A stretch of 64,000 nt of DNA from an uncultured Flavobacteriales bacterium (GTDB lineage Bacteria; Bacteroidota; Bacteroidia; Flavobacteriales_G; Salibacteraceae). The notes below the pieces were generated by a model. It ran no database searches. It was not told where the DNA came from and was given only the letters and a program-made list of their open reading frames with translations. Of the stretch, positions 25,217-40,655 are shown one piece after another. Positions within the stretch are counted from its first letter, which is position 1. Each line of letters begins with the position of its first letter. The stretch covers positions 742,861-806,860 of the forward strand of contig CALSRJ010000001.1 of assembly GCA_943788725.1 (NCBI GenBank). Direction: 5' to 3'. Both the position numbers and the translations under genes were made by a program.

Positions 25217-28167
25217 TGTAATACGATTTTTCGATTAATATTTCTTTGGCTTGAAACAATTTGAACTGTATAAACGCCTACCTCACAATTCGATAAATTA
25301 ACATCAAGAGACTTCCCTGCCATTTCGCTTTTGTAGATAAGCTGTCCTCGAGTATTGAAAATTTGAACATCTGAATCGACTAAAGCTTCTCCAACTTGAA
25401 TCGACAATTGACCCGCCGTGGGATTTGGAAATAAGAGAACATCTTGATCGGAAAAACCAAATTGAGTCAATCGTTCATTTGGCGGGTCTATCTTCTTAGT
25501 TGAAGTATCTCTTTTGAGATTTTCAATTTGAAGCTCAAAACAACTCGAATCCAGATTCAAAACGGAGGAAATTGTGGCACGAGAACCTGACTGCGCGTGA
25601 AACCCATTCGAAATTCGAACTCTCTGACTCACGATACGTGTTTCAGTAGAAGAATGGAGAATTACCTCCCCTTGAGTGGATCGAAAAGTGACATTCTTAC
25701 CAATCAACATCGAATCATTAGCCGAGAATGAACTCGTGTAATTCTCACTGAAGAACTCCCGATTCTGAATAAATCCATTCGGCGGACTCACTTCAAATAA
25801 AATGTACTCAGCCATTGAAATTTGTGGATTTTGAATATGAAATTCATTTTGAACACTCGCAAAACATGAATGAAACGGAGTCATGGAAGTTGGGTTTCCG
25901 ACATTCAAATTGTTGTGAGGATAACCGTATAAGTTCTGTATATCGTGAATACCTGGTTCACGGTAAAACAAGCTATTGCTTACATCATAACTATAATCCA
26001 CACTTGCATCGTCCTGGATGTCAAACACGCTGGTAGTCGGCGCGAAGGGTGCCCGATACGCTGTATTACGACACTTCCAATTGGCCGGATTCATGGATAA
26101 ATTCGCATGTATGAGGATGCCGTTGTAGAAGCGCTCATACGACGCCGGAGCCGCGTACTCTGCCTTGGGATAGTTCTTATTCACCGTGACCTTGAATCCA
26201 GGAACGTTTATCCCATCAATTCTAAACCTCCCCTTAAACAACTCAATATCTTGGTTTACTTCTCCGGTGGTTGCCTTCATTTTAATAGAGAGAATCAAGG
26301 GTTTGAGCGGGATGTGCAACTCCACATCATTCAAACAGGTGTTTACGATCTGTCCATTGCTCGTTTCCAAGCCATCCGGCCGCGTGACGTTTGAACTCCC
26401 ATCAGCGATTGCCACTCTTCTCGGGAACTGAGGATATCCAAGGGAATCCAGCTCATGTTGCAGTTTCAGAAAATAGGGATGCCGATGCAGCGTGGTAGAC
26501 TTATCCTTATTGTTGGTATAGTGATAGGTCATCAAACACTTTGCTGCCGCGTTGTTCAATGCGTTATTCAGTGCAGCCACTTCCAACACCTCAGCCAAGG
26601 CAAGTCCTGGAATCAATCCTATCAATCCAAAGGATGCTATGCTCAAAGCGGTCGGAAGCTTTTTGGTCAGGTACCAAGAGGCCAATTGCAACCCCATCGG
26701 TATGGTAGCCCCTTGCATTTCGCCCTCCCAGGAAATCCATAGACGACATTGATGATGCCTATAGGTTTCGCTGTCTTCTTGCATGAACTTCTTTTCCCAA
26801 GCGGCCAATGCATACCGCGAACTCACACCACCCATGCTTTGTCCGCAGATAACGTTCTCGTGCATGCTTCCGTTGTTGGCTTTCTCCTCATTTACCCAGG
26901 CAATGACCTCCTCAACCAAGGCCGCGTGGTTCTGAACAAAGTCCACTCCATTATCGAAATACACGGTGATCACGTCATAGCCCTCGTTCCTTAATCGATA
27001 CAGAATATTCGCTCCGTTGTTTTCACCTGCTTCTTGATTGCCAGAAGCATCCGCACCATACATCCCGTTCATGCTTGTGTAGAGCATATTATTTGCCTGA
27101 TCCGCCACCAAGGTTTTTTGGTTCACTACTCCCGGCACTTCCGGCCCGTATCCTGATACGACGATGTACGGCTTTCGCAGTTCACAGGCAGTATTACCGC
27201 ACCCGTAGTAAATGCCCATACTGCCGCTCACGACGCTAGGATCCTCATTCTTTGGATTCAAAATAGGGGCTGGTACCGACAAATCCACAATGTCTTGAGG
27301 TAAGTCACGCATGACCTCTCCTTCGGCGACCGATCCTCCCTCACCGCAATCGTATTCAAATACGGGGTCTGCCGAACGCGCCGAAAAGGAGGTGCTCCCT
27401 TCCCGCACGTCACCGCTCTCGAAGTGAACCGCGTAGTACCATTGATACTCTCCCTCATCGTTGTAGTAGACATCCAAGGGTTCATTGAACCTTACTTCCC
27501 TGAACCCATTGCCATCACCAAAATCAATGGCCATAGCGTACGGAAGGTCATCGTACACATTCGTGAAAAAGAAACTGGAGTCTAAAATGAAGGATACCTT
27601 CCCCTCATGAAGGTATCCTTCGATCAGCGGAGATAGCGCGAACACCTCCTCTGATCTAAATAGATCATATGAAACTTCTTTATCTGTCACCTTCAACGCG
27701 TACTCGTCCCAGTAGATTCCCCCTTTCTCCTTTGCTTCTTCCGATATCTGATGATACTTGTACCGAAGCAAACCGATGGTCACGAGGTCGTCCTCGACAA
27801 ATGCTTCCCTCGCCGTTGAATCCAACTGAAAAAAGGCTGGCTTAGGCCTCAGTGGAATATGCGCATCGGACATCTCGGTATATATTAAGTAGAAGTCTTC
27901 TAGCGTTAGCAGACTATCCGGATGCTCTCCCTTGAACACCCCGCGTCTGGAAATCTCGGGAACACAATCAACCAAAACATCAAAAGTCAAGTGCTTCTCA
28001 AGATTTCCATAGATGTGGTCAAGGACATCACTGTAATCCTTGAAATCCGCAGGTGGCGTCTTTGTTGTATCCGGTCCCCAGTAAACCTGAGGATCCTCCT
28101 GTGCCAAAGCAGTAACGCTGGTTACTACTTGGAATAAAATGATCAGTACGGTTACCGCTAGCCTCAT
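25213..28167 (-). CDS. T9SS-secreted protein with alpha/beta-hydrolase (lipase/esterase-like) core
   Basis: Signal peptide; ENVICGQSMGGVSSRYAL nucleophile elbow (GxSxG); C-terminal LFPNPTAGQLSIQVG...GVYTVQIVSSQRNINRKIVLQ. Confidence 0.82.
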   Translation of the reverse strand: MRLAVTVLIILFQVVTSVTALAQEDPQVYWGPDTTKTPPADFKDYSDVLDHIYGNLEKHLTFDVLVDCVPEISRRGVFKGEHPDSLLTLEDFYLIYTEMSDAHIPLRPKPAFFQLDSTAREAFVEDDLVTIGLLRYKYHQISEEAKEKGGIYWDEYALKVTDKEVSYDLFRSEEVFALSPLIEGYLHEGKVSFILDSSFFFTNVYDDLPYAMAIDFGDGNGFREVRFNEPLDVYYNDEGEYQWYYAVHFESGDVREGSTSFSARSADPVFEYDCGEGGSVAEGEVMRDLPQDIVDLSVPAPILNPKNEDPSVVSGSMGIYYGCGNTACELRKPYIVVSGYGPEVPGVVNQKTLVADQANNMLYTSMNGMYGADASGNQEAGENNGANILYRLRNEGYDVITVYFDNGVDFVQNHAALVEEVIAWVNEEKANNGSMHENVICGQSMGGVSSRYALAAWEKKFMQEDSETYRHHQCRLWISWEGEMQGATIPMGLQLASWYLTKKLPTALSIASFGLIGLIPGLALAEVLEVAALNNALNNAAAKCLMTYHYTNNKDKSTTLHRHPYFLKLQHELDSLGYPQFPRRVAIADGSSNVTRPDGLETSNGQIVNTCLNDVELHIPLKPLILSIKMKATTGEVNQDIELFKGRFRIDGINVPGFKVTVNKNYPKAEYAAPASYERFYNGILIHANLSMNPANWKCRNTAYRAPFAPTTSVFDIQDDASVDYSYDVSNSLFYREPGIHDIQNLYGYPHNNLNVGNPTSMTPFHSCFASVQNEFHIQNPQISMAEYILFEVSPPNGFIQNREFFSENYTSSFSANDSMLIGKNVTFRSTQGEVILHSSTETRIVSQRVRISNGFHAQSGSRATISSVLNLDSSCFELQIENLKRDTSTKKIDPPNERLTQFGFSDQDVLLFPNPTAGQLSIQVGEALVDSDVQIFNTRGQLIYKSEMAGKSLDVNLSNCEVGVYTVQIVSSQRNINRKIVLQ

Positions 28168-29273
28168 TATTTCTCAGCATTTGCGGTTTCCAAGGCAAGG
28201 AGACGTTCTTCCAATTCAAGGATGTAGAGCACCAACTCCTCTTGCTTCTCAAGCATCAGCCGCGACAACTCGCCGAGCTCCATCCCTCCTTGTTCCTCGA
28301 ACTCAAGCGCCGATGGAATATTGGGCAAATGACGCTCTTCGGCTATGTATGTCCGCAATTCCGATATGGGCATAAGGGCATAGTCTTCTTGAAACACATA
28401 ATCGGGAATGGATTCATTGATATCGACCAAGATTTCCCTGGCCACTACATAGCCCGTGCTCTTTACTTCAAATTGATTGACGCCTTGTGCATTGCCCACC
28501 ACAAATCGACCATTCTTAATAAAGACTTCACCACTGGTGACCTCTACATCTCCATTCTTGACTAAGAGTTGCCCATTGTCTACCTCTACACTGCCATTCT
28601 GCACTTCTAGCGCACTGCTGGGATTAGTAGTGCCAATACCGACTCGGCCGTTATTCGTAACCGTCAAGCGAGGCAGAGGAGTCGTGCTTGTGCCAATTCC
28701 AGTGTATATCCGTAACGCCCCGTTGTGGTTCTGAATGGCACTACCGCTTTGACCTGAGGTCGTTTGAGACATCAACCCACCATTCACCCTAGCTCCCAGT
28801 CCCAAGGTGTATTTGAAAAGAGATGAACCCACTTGGCTAGAGAAATGAAAGTCATCAGATAGCAATACCTCATCGCCGCCAATACTGGTTTCGTTCTCAG
28901 AAAGTGAAAAAAGCGTTGATGCACTTGATCCCGTCCCCGCGATGAACTCAAGTTCCTCTCCTGAATGAATGTCCCACGTATAAAAGGTGGAGATCGAACT
29001 CGCTGTCGGTGGGTTTGGATGCACCTCAGTAGTAAGCCTCAACGCTGGGTCATCTGCCGGTGGCAGTGAAGGGCAGTTGATACAGGTGGGCGGAGGTATG
29101 AAGTCGTTCTTGATCTCCAATTTAGCCTCCGGATCGTTCTCACCGATCCCGACGTTGTTGCCGCTGATCGTGTTGTTTCCATTGCTGTAGAGTTGTGCAA
29201 GGCTTACACCTCCCAACCCGAATTGCAGAGCGGCACCTAGTGCACATACTCTTACGTAGTTATTAATCCTCAT
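28167..29273 (-). CDS. Secreted tail-fibre/S74-like protein with beta-repeat region and C-terminal coiled coil
   Basis: MRINNYVRVCALGAALQFGLGGVSLAQ signal; NGRVGIGTTNPSSALEVQNGSVEV...; VFQEDYALMPISELRTYIAEERHLPNIPSALE...EELVLYILELEERLLALE typical of Bacteroidota tail-fibre-domain proteins. Confidence 0.78.
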   Translation of the reverse strand: MRINNYVRVCALGAALQFGLGGVSLAQLYSNGNNTISGNNVGIGENDPEAKLEIKNDFIPPPTCINCPSLPPADDPALRLTTEVHPNPPTASSISTFYTWDIHSGEELEFIAGTGSSASTLFSLSENETSIGGDEVLLSDDFHFSSQVGSSLFKYTLGLGARVNGGLMSQTTSGQSGSAIQNHNGALRIYTGIGTSTTPLPRLTVTNNGRVGIGTTNPSSALEVQNGSVEVDNGQLLVKNGDVEVTSGEVFIKNGRFVVGNAQGVNQFEVKSTGYVVAREILVDINESIPDYVFQEDYALMPISELRTYIAEERHLPNIPSALEFEEQGGMELGELSRLMLEKQEELVLYILELEERLLALETANAEK

Positions 29274-29294
29274 TTCCGTATAATATTTTGTGAA

Positions 29295-29391
29295 TAAAAT
29301 TTTAACCGAACAAACATGATGCGCTTCTCCCATTTTCAAAAACGACATCTGCGAATGCCTTACTGGCTGATTTGCACTTATTAAAATTTTA
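29295..29391. promoter_or_regulatory. Two identical TAAAATTTTA palindromes (29295-29304 and 29382-29391), candidate operators
   Basis: Exact 10-bp palindromes 87 nt apart in the intergenic region between the divergent cassette and HTH gene. Confidence 0.4.
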
Positions 29392-29528
29392 GAATCAGGC
29401 GTTGGCGGGAAGTGTCAAAATTTCGAGGCACCAAAAGAGGCGTTCCATCAACTTTTTCATAATTTGCCCCCGACTACGCCGATTGATTGCTCCCCTTTTA
29501 TCATTTATTTAAACCAATTTAGTGACCT

Positions 29529-30578
29529 ATGAAAACAGATTCACTGATTCAGCGTCGTGTCTTTGATGAACTAAAGAAGCAGACACCAAAGGGAGTAAGC
29601 GTCGTCGACAACATTGCAGAGCTGCTTGATATTAGTACCGATAGCGTGTACCGCCGGATGCGCGGGGACACCGATCTCACTGCCAAGGAACTGGAGATCA
29701 TCAGCCTTAACTACGACGTTTCCGTTGATGAAATCCTGGATGGCTCAAGCAAGCGTGTGAGTTTCAACTTCCAACCGATCAACGAAGAGAGCTTCACATT
29801 TATCGATTACCTGAACTACATCAAGAACATGATGCGATTGGTACACGAGGCGCGCGATCGAAAAATGCTTTACATCGCCAACGACATACCATTCTTTCAC
29901 CTGCTCAGTGCGCCTACCATCGCTGCTTTCAAGCTTTTCTTTTGGCACAAAACCATTCTTGACTACAAAGACTACAGGCAATCGAAGTTTGAGCTGAACG
30001 TCAAGAACGATGCTATAAATGAAATCTCTCGGCTCACCCGACATTATTACCTGGGCATCCCTTCCATTGAAATCTACTCTCCAGAAACGATCAATACTAC
30101 GCTCAAGCAGATTTACTATTACTTCGAATCGGGTCACTTCTCCAAGCCTACGCTTGCGCTTCTACTGTTAGATGATCTAGAACGTTTGGTAGATCACCTC
30201 AGAATGCAATGCGAAGTGGGCTACAAGTTCACACCCAATAAAAAGGGCAGCACGCCTTCCCCCAATGAAGTCCCTTACGATACAGATGGCAATTACACCG
30301 TGTACCACAACGAAGTGCTCTATACGGACGCCACCATCCTTGTAGAGCTTGACGACCAAAAGTGGAGCTACCTCACCAATAACGGACTCAACGTATTGAG
30401 CACTAGAGATGAACGCTTTTACGAGGACAACCTGAAAAGCTTTGAAATATTGAGTCGGCGCAGCACACGTATCTCCGGCTCCTCGGAGAAAGAACGAAGC
30501 AAAGTGTTCAACAATTACCAGTTATCCATCTCTCAGATGCGCAAGAGGATTGAGATCGCTATGCAGCTGGGGATGTGA
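29529..30578 (+). CDS. HTH (BetR/XRE-like) transcriptional regulator with long C-terminal domain
   Basis: GVSVVDNIAELLDISTDSVYRRMRGDTDLTAKELEIISLNYDVSVDEIL HTH followed by about 270 aa of uncharacterised sequence. Confidence 0.75.
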   Translation: MKTDSLIQRRVFDELKKQTPKGVSVVDNIAELLDISTDSVYRRMRGDTDLTAKELEIISLNYDVSVDEILDGSSKRVSFNFQPINEESFTFIDYLNYIKNMMRLVHEARDRKMLYIANDIPFFHLLSAPTIAAFKLFFWHKTILDYKDYRQSKFELNVKNDAINEISRLTRHYYLGIPSIEIYSPETINTTLKQIYYYFESGHFSKPTLALLLLDDLERLVDHLRMQCEVGYKFTPNKKGSTPSPNEVPYDTDGNYTVYHNEVLYTDATILVELDDQKWSYLTNNGLNVLSTRDERFYEDNLKSFEILSRRSTRISGSSEKERSKVFNNYQLSISQMRKRIEIAMQLGM

Positions 30579-32077
30579 AGGGGAAGGTGAAGTGCCGCGA
30601 TTTTGCGGCTGCGTGCTTCTGCCGCGCGTTGGTTGATCGCTGGATCATATGCTACATGACTCTCTTCATCGTGTGCTAGTCCGGTGAGCGTGTACATCCC
30701 TCCTTTCATTCCTGGGATAGGACGTTGACTCAACCCGGTTTCTTCGGCCCATTCATAGGATCGAACTCCTTCTTCCCAATCGCTTTGATCGATGGGAGAT
30801 GCGAACCAATCTTCCGAAATCTTAGGCCTTGGAAACGCCGAAACTCCTGTAGCCAGGTTGGCATCCGTAAGCACGAACACAGGGGTGCGGAAGGATTCGG
30901 CGAGCTTTCGAGCCAGAATGATGAAGTGAAAACATTCTTCAATGGTACTGGGAGCAATGACCACTTTAGGCGCATCTCCCGGATCACCAAACAGCACCGA
31001 GAGCAAGTCTCCCTGCTCCACTTTTGTAGGTAATCCTGTACTCGGACCGCCGCGTTGCACATCAACGATGACCAGCGGAACTTCCGCCATAACTGCTAGG
31101 CCAATGAATTCTGTCTTCAGTGCGATACCCGGTCCGGATGTAATCGTGATCGCTGTTTTACCCGCATAGCTCGAACCGATTGCAAATCCAATGGCGGCAA
31201 TTTCATCCTCTGCTTGGTGCACTAATCCACCTACCGACTCCATGTGCTCGGCTAAGTGGTGTGATGCAGAAGTTGCAGGCGTGATCGGATACATCGAACA
31301 AACGTCAATTCCGGCTGCCATTACACCGAAGCTGATCGCTTCATTTCCGTTCATCACCAGCATTTCTTGGTCTGTCTCGATGGCGGGAATCTCAAAGTGC
31401 AGATCAAGGTTTGTCTCCGCCCAGGTATAGCCCGACATAAGGAGGTTGATGTTGTCTTGAATGATCTGATCCGATTTCTTTCGGAATATCCTTCGGATTT
31501 GCTGTTGTGCCTTCTCGAGATCGCGCGAGTAGATATAGCTTAGCATACCGAGTACCCACATGTTCTTACCCTTCTTGGCGTTCTTAACCACCTTGAGGCA
31601 TTCCTCTTCCATGGGAATCTCAATTACATCCGCCCCAAGTACTTTGAATTGCTCAATCGCCTCGGTGTACTCCTGCCTGATTTTTTCGGTGGGATCGTTT
31701 CGCCACTTGTTTTCGATCAGAAGATGCGTGCCCGGTTTATACGCCCGTTGCTCGATCCGTCCGTAGGGAACCTGTTCATTGAAGGCAACAACCAGCTGGG
31801 CGTGGTCGCCCATGTTGGTGACCGATTCACTTCCAATGCGTACCCGAATACCAGAGGCTCCGGCACGCGAACGAGCAGGAGGTTGGATCTCTGCTGGGAT
31901 GATCTCTACGGTCCAAACACCATTGCCCATCTTCGCCGAAATGGCGCCGAGGCTTTGCCCACATTTTTGCGCGCCTTCCCCTGAGTCACTGACTATCTCG
32001 ACGATGGCTTCTGAAAGTACGGTAGGTTTTTTTGTTGGCTGTTTGGAACCTTTTGGGGGGCTCACTATTGTATCCAT
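30533..32077 (-). CDS. korA: 2-oxoacid:ferredoxin oxidoreductase subunit alpha (fused gamma/alpha), 3'-truncated
   Basis: SGEGAQKCGQSLGAI...GNEAISFGVMAAGIDVCSMYPITPATSASHHLAEHMESVGGLVHQAEDEIAAIGFAIGSSYAG...; reading departs from the family after RSRKIAAL and ends in antisense of the HTH gene. Confidence 0.85.
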   Translation of the reverse strand: MDTIVSPPKGSKQPTKKPTVLSEAIVEIVSDSGEGAQKCGQSLGAISAKMGNGVWTVEIIPAEIQPPARSRAGASGIRVRIGSESVTNMGDHAQLVVAFNEQVPYGRIEQRAYKPGTHLLIENKWRNDPTEKIRQEYTEAIEQFKVLGADVIEIPMEEECLKVVKNAKKGKNMWVLGMLSYIYSRDLEKAQQQIRRIFRKKSDQIIQDNINLLMSGYTWAETNLDLHFEIPAIETDQEMLVMNGNEAISFGVMAAGIDVCSMYPITPATSASHHLAEHMESVGGLVHQAEDEIAAIGFAIGSSYAGKTAITITSGPGIALKTEFIGLAVMAEVPLVIVDVQRGGPSTGLPTKVEQGDLLSVLFGDPGDAPKVVIAPSTIEECFHFIILARKLAESFRTPVFVLTDANLATGVSAFPRPKISEDWFASPIDQSDWEEGVRSYEWAEETGLSQRPIPGMKGGMYTLTGLAHDEESHVAYDPAINQRAAEARSRKIAALHLPLHIPSCIAISILLRI

Positions 32078-32231
32078 ATCTGGAGGTTAATGTTCTTTCC
32101 CAAAGGTGTCGAGATTGACAAGGGCAAAAGCTGACCGTTGTCAGACGGTGGCCCGTAATCCAACAGATTCAGATTTCCAGATAGACGGGATGAGATAGTC
32201 ACAACTAAATCCCTGCACCTATTTTCGTCTC

Positions 32232-32786
32232 ATGGCTGAAACCCATCCCTATTGCGCCTACGTGGATACGCTAGACGAAAACAACGTGCACAGGCACTAC
32301 CATGACCATGAATACGGTTTTCCGATTCCCTCAGATGACGAACTGTTTGGGCGTCTGTTGCTCGAAATCAACCAAGCGGGATTGTCTTGGACTACCATCC
32401 TCAACAAGAAGGACAATTTCCGAAAGGCCTACGCTGGATTCAAGATCGATGTGGTAGCCAATTTCTCAGAAAAGGACCGCGAACGCCTCCTCGCAGACGC
32501 AAGCATCATTCGCAACCGGCTTAAGGTCAATGCAGCCATCCATAACGCCCAAGTAATCCGCGGTCTGCAACAAGAGCATGGGTCCTTCACCGCATGGCTG
32601 GACCAACACCACCCCAAGTCAAGGGAAGCATGGGTTAAGCTCTTTAAAAAGACCTTCAAGTTCACGGGTGGAGAAATTACGAATGAGTTCCTGATGAGCT
32701 CCGGATACTTGCCCGGCTCTCATTCCGATACTTGTCCTGTCATGCAAAGGATCAAAGAAGAAAACCCGCCTTGGATGCGCGCTTGA
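32232..32786 (+). CDS. tag: DNA-3-methyladenine glycosylase I
   Basis: HRHYHDHEYGFPIPSDDELFGRLLLEINQAGLSWTTILNKKDNFRKAY...SSGYLPGSHSDTCPVM. Confidence 0.93.
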   Translation: MAETHPYCAYVDTLDENNVHRHYHDHEYGFPIPSDDELFGRLLLEINQAGLSWTTILNKKDNFRKAYAGFKIDVVANFSEKDRERLLADASIIRNRLKVNAAIHNAQVIRGLQQEHGSFTAWLDQHHPKSREAWVKLFKKTFKFTGGEITNEFLMSSGYLPGSHSDTCPVMQRIKEENPPWMRA

Positions 32787-32788
32787 AC

Positions 32789-33637
32789 CTATTGACCAGC
32801 AAATTTACCTTGCTGGTAGTCCAAATAGGCTTGACGGATCTCCTGCTCGGAATTCATCACGAAGGGACCTTGAGCTACAATTGGTTCGTGAAAGGAATTG
32901 GCATGTCCAAAAATGATGACTACATCTTCTGAAGTTTCAATCGTCACTTCCTCGCCTTCGTTGTTGAAGTCAACCAACTCACGAAGATCAACCTCCATTC
33001 CATTGACCCTTGCCTTGCCTCGTACAACATAACACAAGATGGTTTCCGACGCGGGAATCACTTTCTTGAAGGTACTCCCCCCCTTCAAATAGAGCGTGCT
33101 CAGAAAGATCGGGTAAGAGGACACAAAGGAGGCCTCGCTTCCCTCCCAAGCACCGAAAATGAGCTGCAAGCGACTCCCGTTTTCAAGGTCGATTACTACC
33201 ATCTCTTCTTCTTGCTTCCCCACATACCGGGGTTCGGTCATTTTCAGACTAGCCGGTAAGTTGAGCCAAAGCTGAAGGATCTCCAGGTCTCCCCCATTCT
33301 GTTTGAATTCAGGACTACTCACTTCCGAATGAATGAGCCCTCGTCCAGCCGTCATGTACTGGATACCACCTGGACCGATTACTTCTTTGTGTCCACCTGA
33401 ATCTTCGTGCATAATATCGCCGTCGAGGATGAAGGTCACTGTCTCCATGCCTCTGTGGGGATGCGGACCAAAGGGCAAGCCATTGTTTTGCGCAGGATAA
33501 GTTTGAAACCCGTGGTGATTCAGGAAGAGAAAGGGATCGATGTGATTCAGCCGGCGGGTAGGCATTGGGCTGTACGTAACCAAATCGTCTATGGGTCGAT
33601 ACTCTGCCGGGTGAATAGCCTTTATGGTTCGCATCAT
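32789..33637 (-). CDS. Pirin family protein
   Basis: HIDPFLFLNHHG...FGPHPHRGMETVTFILDGDIMHEDSGGHKEVIGPGGIQYMTAGRGLIHSE. Confidence 0.93.
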   Translation of the reverse strand: MMRTIKAIHPAEYRPIDDLVTYSPMPTRRLNHIDPFLFLNHHGFQTYPAQNNGLPFGPHPHRGMETVTFILDGDIMHEDSGGHKEVIGPGGIQYMTAGRGLIHSEVSSPEFKQNGGDLEILQLWLNLPASLKMTEPRYVGKQEEEMVVIDLENGSRLQLIFGAWEGSEASFVSSYPIFLSTLYLKGGSTFKKVIPASETILCYVVRGKARVNGMEVDLRELVDFNNEGEEVTIETSEDVVIIFGHANSFHEPIVAQGPFVMNSEQEIRQAYLDYQQGKFAGQ

Positions 33638-33869
33638 GGTGCATCTGATTTTAGCTAAAACAAGGAAATAGAAAAAGCGTTCATCGCAAGGTGCGTATTC
33701 CAATGAAATCAACCCAAACTTTCATGTTGATACGATTGTAAAGCGGCATTGTACACGCAAGATATCAAACCGAACCACCGAGTGCTTCCCCGTCGACCTA
33801 TGAAACCTCAATAGCCGTATTTGCAAAACACCAATTCATCCATAGTTTTGATCAAAATCAACATCTATT

Positions 33870-34121
33870 ATGAGCTGGCAAGAAGAAGACCTCGGTGAGG
33901 GCAAGAAAGGATTGATCCGAACCTTTGAATTCGCTGATTTCAAAGAAGCGTGGAGTTTCATGAGCGAAGTCGCCGAACTCGCCGAAGCCCATCAGCACCA
34001 TCCCAATTGGACAAACGTATACAACCGAGTGACCATCCTGTTGAGCACGCACGACGCCGACGATTCCATTACCGAAAAAGACAAAGCATTGGCCGAGGCA
34101 ATCGATGCCTTAGACGGATAA
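33870..34121 (+). CDS. phhB: 4a-hydroxytetrahydrobiopterin dehydratase
   Basis: [56 protein letters not shown] motif. Confidence 0.92.
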
Positions 34122-34122
34122 G

Positions 34123-35025
34123 ATGAAGGCAGAGCGAACGAGCACGCTGAAAGCCCATAGCGCCCCGCTCTACGCGCTAGCTCCGGGAAGAAATTTGGGC
34201 ACGCTCTTCTCCGGAGGAGGTGACCGAGTAATCGCGGAATGGGACCTGAGCAACGAACAGACCAATCCATTCGGCATCCGCACCGATGCTACCATTTACA
34301 GCCTGCTCAACATAGATCAAGAAACATTACTCATAGGAACCAACCGAGGGAGTATTCACGTTATCGATCTCGCTTCAAAAAAGGAAGTTCGACACCTCAA
34401 ACTGCACGACCAAGGGATTTTTCACATGTGCTATTGCAGCACACTCAACCGCGTCTATGTTGGAAGCGCTGACGAAAGCATAAGTGTTTGGGAGGCAGAA
34501 CAATGGAGCTTGCTTTGGCACCTCAAACTTGGACAAGGCAAGGTGCGTAGAATTGCGTTGAATGCAGACCAGTCCAACGTGGCCATCGCCTGTGGAAATG
34601 GGCGTGTTCAGATGCTAGAGACAGCAGATAACACCATGATCTATTCTATTGAAGCTCATGATGACGGGGCGAATTCAGTGGCATTTCTGCCCAATGGGAA
34701 CTTAGTCACCGGGGGCAAAGACGCCCACCTAAAGGTCTGGGACGGAAAAAATCATTTTCGGCAACTGATCAGCATTCCAGCACACAACTTCGCGATCTAC
34801 GACATCATCGTTCAACCGCAGGGCAAATGGATTGCAACCGCAAGTAGAGATAAAACAGTGAAAATTTGGGACATCGACCTCTTGGAAAAACCGATCAGGC
34901 TAGACAGAAAAAGTCATGCGGGGCACACTCATTCGGTCAATGCGCTTTGTTATTTGGAAGAGGAAGACTTGCTGGTCTCGTGTTCCGACGATCGCACCAT
35001 CTGCCTGTGGAACGTGGGAATCTAG
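34123..35025 (+). CDS. WD40 repeat protein
   Basis: Repeated GH/WD units (GGGDRVIAEWDLS; ATASRDKTVKIWDIDLL; VSCSDDRTICLWNVG). Confidence 0.92.
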   Translation: MKAERTSTLKAHSAPLYALAPGRNLGTLFSGGGDRVIAEWDLSNEQTNPFGIRTDATIYSLLNIDQETLLIGTNRGSIHVIDLASKKEVRHLKLHDQGIFHMCYCSTLNRVYVGSADESISVWEAEQWSLLWHLKLGQGKVRRIALNADQSNVAIACGNGRVQMLETADNTMIYSIEAHDDGANSVAFLPNGNLVTGGKDAHLKVWDGKNHFRQLISIPAHNFAIYDIIVQPQGKWIATASRDKTVKIWDIDLLEKPIRLDRKSHAGHTHSVNALCYLEEEDLLVSCSDDRTICLWNVGI

Positions 35026-35033
35026 CAAGTTGT

Positions 35034-35399
35034 CTATAGAAGATGGAGCACCACCAATGTAATCGCCGCAGGAAGGGCCTGAATCCAAATGATCTTTTTA
35101 GAGATCGAGTAGCCGCCATATAAACCAGCTACTAGCACACAGCCAAGAAAAAAAACAGCCACATTTTGCGCCCAAGGTCCATCACCGATCAACAAGGACC
35201 ATGCTAATCCAGCAGCGAGGAAGCCATTGTACAATCCCTGATTCGCCGCCATACCTTTGGTCGCCTCAAACATCTCAGGAGGCATTGCACCCCTAAACGC
35301 CCGCTTTCCGAAAGTGGTCCAAGTGAACATCTCCATCCAAAGGAAAAACAGGTGTTCAATTAAAACAATGGAAACCAATATCTTGACTATGATAGACAT
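35034..35399 (-). CDS. DUF1304 membrane protein
   Basis: IEHLFFLWMEMFTWTTFGKRAF...MAANQGLYNGFLAAGL. Confidence 0.88.
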   Translation of the reverse strand: MSIIVKILVSIVLIEHLFFLWMEMFTWTTFGKRAFRGAMPPEMFEATKGMAANQGLYNGFLAAGLAWSLLIGDGPWAQNVAVFFLGCVLVAGLYGGYSISKKIIWIQALPAAITLVVLHLL

Positions 35400-40546: not shown

Positions 40547-40646
40547 AGGGCGTGCAGCCCACCCTTCGGGTCGGCTACCGCGCTATCCGTTCCTACGCTT
40601 CGCCGCTTGCAGCGGCTGCAGGGTATCCACTGCTATCACTCACGCG
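40547..40646. repeat. Structured GC-rich intergenic element, candidate dispersed Bacteroidota repeat
   Basis: GGGCGTGCAGCCCACCCTTCGGGTCGGCTACCGCGCTATCCGTTCCTACGCTTCGCCGCTTGCAGCGGCTGCAGGGTATCCACTGCTATCACTCACGCG; hairpins ACCC-TTC-GGGT and GCCGCT-TGC-AGCGGC, outer GCGTG/CACGC. Confidence 0.6.
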
Positions 40647-40655
40647 AATCTTGGA

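Follow-up and report, generated by a model that had tools for sequence, protein, structure and literature searches.

The closest described systems to the gene studied here are the dimeric OGOR (KorAB; 6n2n/6n2o) and full-length KorA proteins matching TIGR03710 (NCBIfam, KorA alpha subunit). In the parts consulted of two reports on sulphur-oxidising symbionts, both dimeric KorAB and Rnf are described (PMC6315080, PMC11636981). In tubeworm symbionts, according to the same parts, dimeric korAB lies apart from the rTCA cluster (PMC6315080), and the expression of dimeric KorAB and of a "PFOR-like" gene falls under the same condition (PMC11636981). A further known class is that of bacterial remnants born by deletion (pseudogenes), in which an ORF is fused to unrelated sequence and the neighbours in a relative reveal the loss. 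The gene at our locus, called korA' here, shares the alpha-subunit architecture of the dimeric OGOR by sequence (phmmer E of 8e-81 for its intact homologue), but it has neither an adjoining beta subunit nor a C-terminal domain. The piece 3ju3, which was solved alone, falls within the part that is lost from our gene.

The window analysed, a stretch of 64,000 nucleotides, belongs to an uncultured Flavobacteriales bacterium whose assembly comprises 2.93 Mb in 7 contigs and is 99% complete. It was compared mainly with G008, the congeneric Flavobacteriales MAG bin.462 (JABMOM010000008.1; 88% nucleotide identity), which is fragmented and leaves contigs 5 and 23 separate. The features of the window were as follows:

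29529 to 30578, plus strand: intact HTH (BetR-like) regulator gene, 95% identical to that of G008 in amino acids
30533 to 32077, minus strand: truncated korA' ORF of 514 aa, made of 497 original codons and 17-18 chimeric residues, then a stop
30533 to 30587, minus strand: chimeric 3' tail of that ORF, covering in antisense the final 46 bp of the HTH gene plus 9 bp beyond it
30587/30588, no strand: junction, very probably of a deletion, from base-by-base comparison with two G008 parental sequences
30588 to 32077, minus strand: surviving part of korA', codons 1-497 of 638, without stop or frameshift
32172 to 32209, no strand: second difference from G008, upstream of korA', with about 38 unrelated bp here against 1.8 kb in G008
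32232 to 32786, plus strand: DNA-3-methyladenine glycosylase-type gene, named from its own sequence rather than from a family search; first conserved gene of the right flank

The initial annotation had described a 3'-truncated alpha-subunit gene with an antisense tail, and this description was borne out. The ORF is real and tracks the family up to codon 497 (...ARSRKIAAL), where the korA' part ends and 18 residues antisense to the 3' end of the HTH gene (HLPLHIPSCIAISILLRI) lead to the stop. The surviving part is 88% identical in nucleotides and about 97.6% identical in amino acids to the intact gene of G008, and it retains both the N-terminal gamma-type domain (Pfam POR, PF01558, residues 32-216, 62.8 bits) and POR_N (PF01855, residues 250-477, 170.7 bits). 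The C-terminal PFOR_II / Transketolase_C domain, by contrast with the full-length homologue, was absent from the window ORF in the Pfam search; in G008 it was matched at residues 511-579, slightly under the Pfam cut-offs. Likewise, the window ORF scored 439.5 bits against TIGR03710, under the curated cut-off of 482.75 bits, whereas the intact gene scored 524.1 bits. The C-terminal loss stood as annotated, while its length of about 100 aa did not: the G008 protein has 638 aa and extends 141 aa past codon 497.

The two halves of the window around the junction match two different places in G008. Window positions 25984-30587 correspond to its contig 23 (87.6% identity), and positions 30585-32171 (88.2%) and 32206-35389 (84.3%) to its contig 5. 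Base by base, identity with the left parental sequence stops at 30587 and identity with the right one starts at 30588, which narrows the break formerly estimated at about 30578-30600 to a single position. The HTH stop codon ends at 30578, 9 bp before this position, which falls within codon 497 of korA'; the final 18 residues of the ORF are accordingly read antisense to the 3' end of the HTH gene. A frameshift or a stop in place of a deletion was considered and rejected, as no korA sequence remains beyond the junction. Two-sided synteny with an intact relative, together with an abrupt breakpoint, is the pattern by which a deletion remnant is recognised, and both were found. No long direct repeat exists between the G008 parental sequences at the junction; the shared bases amount to at most 1-3 bp, which suggests a non-homologous deletion. 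The "island boundary" of the initial annotation could not be upheld, because both flanks are collinear with G008 (the right one up to about 35389), the neighbouring genes are ordinary, no tRNA was found in the window, a long repeat is lacking and no G+C step was seen at the junction. An empty ancestral site was sought in other congeners via the tag gene, of which a good match occurred only in G009, without the other neighbours nearby. As for the second difference upstream of korA', the corresponding 1.8 kb of G008 (L039:3553-5385) holds a gene for a 602-aa YfiR-SpoIIE protein.

The relatives indicate what used to stand between the two flanks. On contig 5 of G008, korA' is followed by an overlapping korB' and by the start of a P842-type protein, at which the contig ends. 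Contig 23 carries two small ORFs (150 and 226 aa) after the HTH gene and then, on the opposite strand, rnfA, E, G, D and C plus the last part of a P1235-type gene, at which this contig breaks off too. In G014, a genome of the same family, the whole operon korA-korB-P842-rnfB-P1235-rnfC-D-G-E-A lies on one contig. Given this gene order, which is also seen in others, G008 contigs 5 and 23 very probably carry opposite ends of one operon, the middle of which falls in the gap between them. The rnfB belonging to the kor operon of G008 is itself not in the G008 assembly, whose only rnfB lies on contig 30 in another rnf cluster, which also includes a PFOR-like gene (L149, G008:C30:95000-114000). The missing stretch was estimated at about 14 kb, by adding the distance between codon 497 and the rnfC end in L066 (about 9.7 kb) to that between rnfC and the junction in G008 (4.4 kb), and at about 14.3 kb from G014.

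Considering these comparisons, we regard it as very likely that the stub is the 5' part of korA' left behind when one deletion, some 14 kb long and apparently recent, removed the remainder of the kor-rnf operon, which encoded a 2-oxoacid:ferredoxin oxidoreductase and the Rnf complex for electron transport. In the proposed course of events, korA' would have been the first gene of an ancestral korA'-korB'-P842-rnfB-P1235-rnfCDGEA operon. One illegitimate (non-homologous) deletion, reaching from a point 9 bp past the HTH stop codon into codon 497, would then have taken the remaining operon and the two small ORFs formerly downstream of the HTH gene. We infer the common operon of the two G008 contigs, the size, the single event and its illegitimate nature from the gene orders and the junction. 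The case is thus one of ordinary gene loss caught early.

The remainder of the genome was searched for a korB and an intact korA, as had been proposed. Only one complete korAB pair was found, on contig 5 of this genome; its KorA is a paralogue just 37-38% identical to korA', and the pair is not the partner of korA'. No second KorB-type match was present in this genome in the TPP_enzyme_C family search. The korB reported as missing next to the truncated gene is indeed nowhere nearby, and the cognate korB beside korA, encoding the TPP-binding beta subunit, by which a functional KorAB enzyme would be recognised is thus lacking. Without its C-terminal domain and beta subunit, the stub is most likely a young pseudogene devoid of enzyme activity, judging from its sequence, and to label it a functional KorA would probably be a mistake. 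The 2-oxoacid:ferredoxin chemistry can fall to the complete korAB on contig 5.

Three other explanations of the junction and its stub deserve attention. The initial annotation had proposed that a deletion or insertion removed the korA 3' end and korB and placed the HTH regulator there. The removal is best explained by a deletion, as set out above, but the placement of the HTH gene has to be abandoned. It is true that this gene abuts the break, as it would if a foreign block carrying it and its left neighbours had been inserted and had cut korA'. Nevertheless, its stop codon is unaltered, the gene lies just outside the breakpoint by 9 bp, and together with 4.6 kb of the same left neighbours it is collinear in G008, where it stands beside the rnf genes. 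Moreover, HTH homologues of 48-51% identity exist in four other congeners, with related left neighbours where these are visible, and a diverged homologue in G005 has partly the same neighbours. The HTH gene is therefore an old resident and no newcomer, and we place it outside the kor-rnf operon. With no long repeat, tRNA or G+C step either, an insertion is hardly credible and is already contradicted by G008. A misjoin, in which the true chromosome would carry an intact kor-rnf operon that the assembler skipped, for instance where coverage was low or a read chimeric, would account for an undecayed stub as readily as expected of any artefact. However, 14 kb would then have to be missing from the whole assembly: RnfB and RnfC gave no match in this genome in protein searches, while a 6.1-kb portion of the lost DNA gave three matches only, of up to 70 bp, all of them copies of a short repeat. 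(The absence of the operon is judged from RnfB, RnfC, the TPP_enzyme_C family and this 6.1 kb of DNA.) In addition, no repeat common to both sides could have caused a collapse, and the junction lies inside a contig of 1.0 Mb. A misjoin is accordingly unlikely.

The state of the stub bears on its age and on whether its product is still used. Over the 497 codons, comparison with G008 gave a dS of 0.73, a dN of 0.012 and an omega of 0.016, without stops or frameshifts; omega was 0.030 for canonical korA and 0.03-0.29 for the neighbour genes. In this lack of decay the stub differs from the usual deletion-born remnants. When the 12 amino acid differences were polarised with five outgroups, 4 fell on the branch of this genome and 5 on that of G008, while 3 were ambiguous. 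A rough Poisson bound (1132 nonsynonymous sites, half of dS on the branch of this genome) allows neutral evolution for up to about 2-3.5% of the branch, as a longer time would have left more changes than are seen. Hence the numbers fit a recent deletion, a stub still under selection or an artefactual join, and the first of the three is the most likely. Continued use of the truncated protein, for instance as a partner for the remaining KorB or as a non-catalytic binding protein, would agree with an omega below that of canonical korA, with the similar numbers of amino acid changes on both branches, with the open frame and with the conservation of the 94 bp upstream of korA'. On the other hand, a recent deletion yields the same numbers, with the time without constraint limited to about 3% of the branch; the KorA still encoded on contig 5 shares just 37-38% identity with korA', the tail is arbitrary antisense sequence, and no short form was found in any relative examined. 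Such a retained function is very unlikely, and recent loss of the operon remains our preferred reading.

The taxonomic distribution of korA' was also investigated. Among 35 genomes of the family, korA' was complete in G008 and G014, truncated in this genome and reduced to a remnant in G018; it was not found in the remaining ones, while canonical KorA was found in nearly all. Had relatives shared both the short KorA and its HTH neighbour, this would have spoken against a loss in this lineage, but none did: the sole congener with korA' has it at full length and with korB. All 80 of the 80 korA' loci examined in a scan of named genomes carry the C-terminal domain that the window copy lacks. The remnant in G018, which belongs to another genus, consists of 68 5' codons with two stop codons beside an MFS-transporter-like gene (contig 318, L148:632-826), and it is apparently a second, independent loss in the family.

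What had been a puzzling orphan gene thereby becomes a roughly dated loss event, and the lost part can be named as a kor-PFOR-like-rnf module. The stub itself is of little novelty, and the lost operon may offer more; since the module occurs over several phyla, it is the part that a specialist might follow. A korAB-P842-rnfB-P1235-rnfC(DGEA) cluster, in equivalent or rearranged form, was found in Bacteroidota, Gammaproteobacteria and SAR324 (L041, L066, L084-L141). The cluster is rearranged in Marivirga, Algoriphagus and relatives (L070-L075), and partial clusters occur in Planctomycetota and Acidobacteria. At 16 inspected loci, that of G014 among them, the KorAB genes stand together with those for P842 and P1235 (large, PFOR-like, with Fe-S motifs) and with rnf genes. 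P1235 resembles PFOR (7plm, 1b0p) over a domain I/II stretch and two Fe-S sites, and weakly in the TPP domain, while P842 carries a single-cluster ferredoxin domain at its C terminus, together with a region similar to the C-terminal part of P1235. Of the 16 loci, 14 lack the TPP-type GDG motif in P842 and 13 lack it in P1235; its presence in the others, being that of a bare tripeptide, is weak evidence. The Fe-S motifs, the accompanying rnf genes and the frequent absence of GDG suggest putative adaptors that pass electrons from KorAB to Rnf. We therefore put forward, tentatively and as a possibility somewhat short of an even chance, that PFOR relatives without catalytic activity may have served as electron-carrying adaptors in an assembly transferring electrons from KorAB to Rnf, and that this assembly has just been lost from this genome. 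This exact cluster was not found described in the parts consulted of the literature on KorAB and Rnf; that the KorAB and PFOR-like genes of the tubeworm symbionts are those of the lost operon is our guess.

Finally, the short repeat of 60-70 bp mentioned above (GCTATCCGCT...CTGCTATCCCTCACGCG) is scattered in this genome. Copies occur at 40582-40650 of the window, around 1501-1570 of L144, L145 and L146, and at L050:8761-8828; one of the copies lies in the 3' end of rnfG in G008. It looks like a REP-type element.
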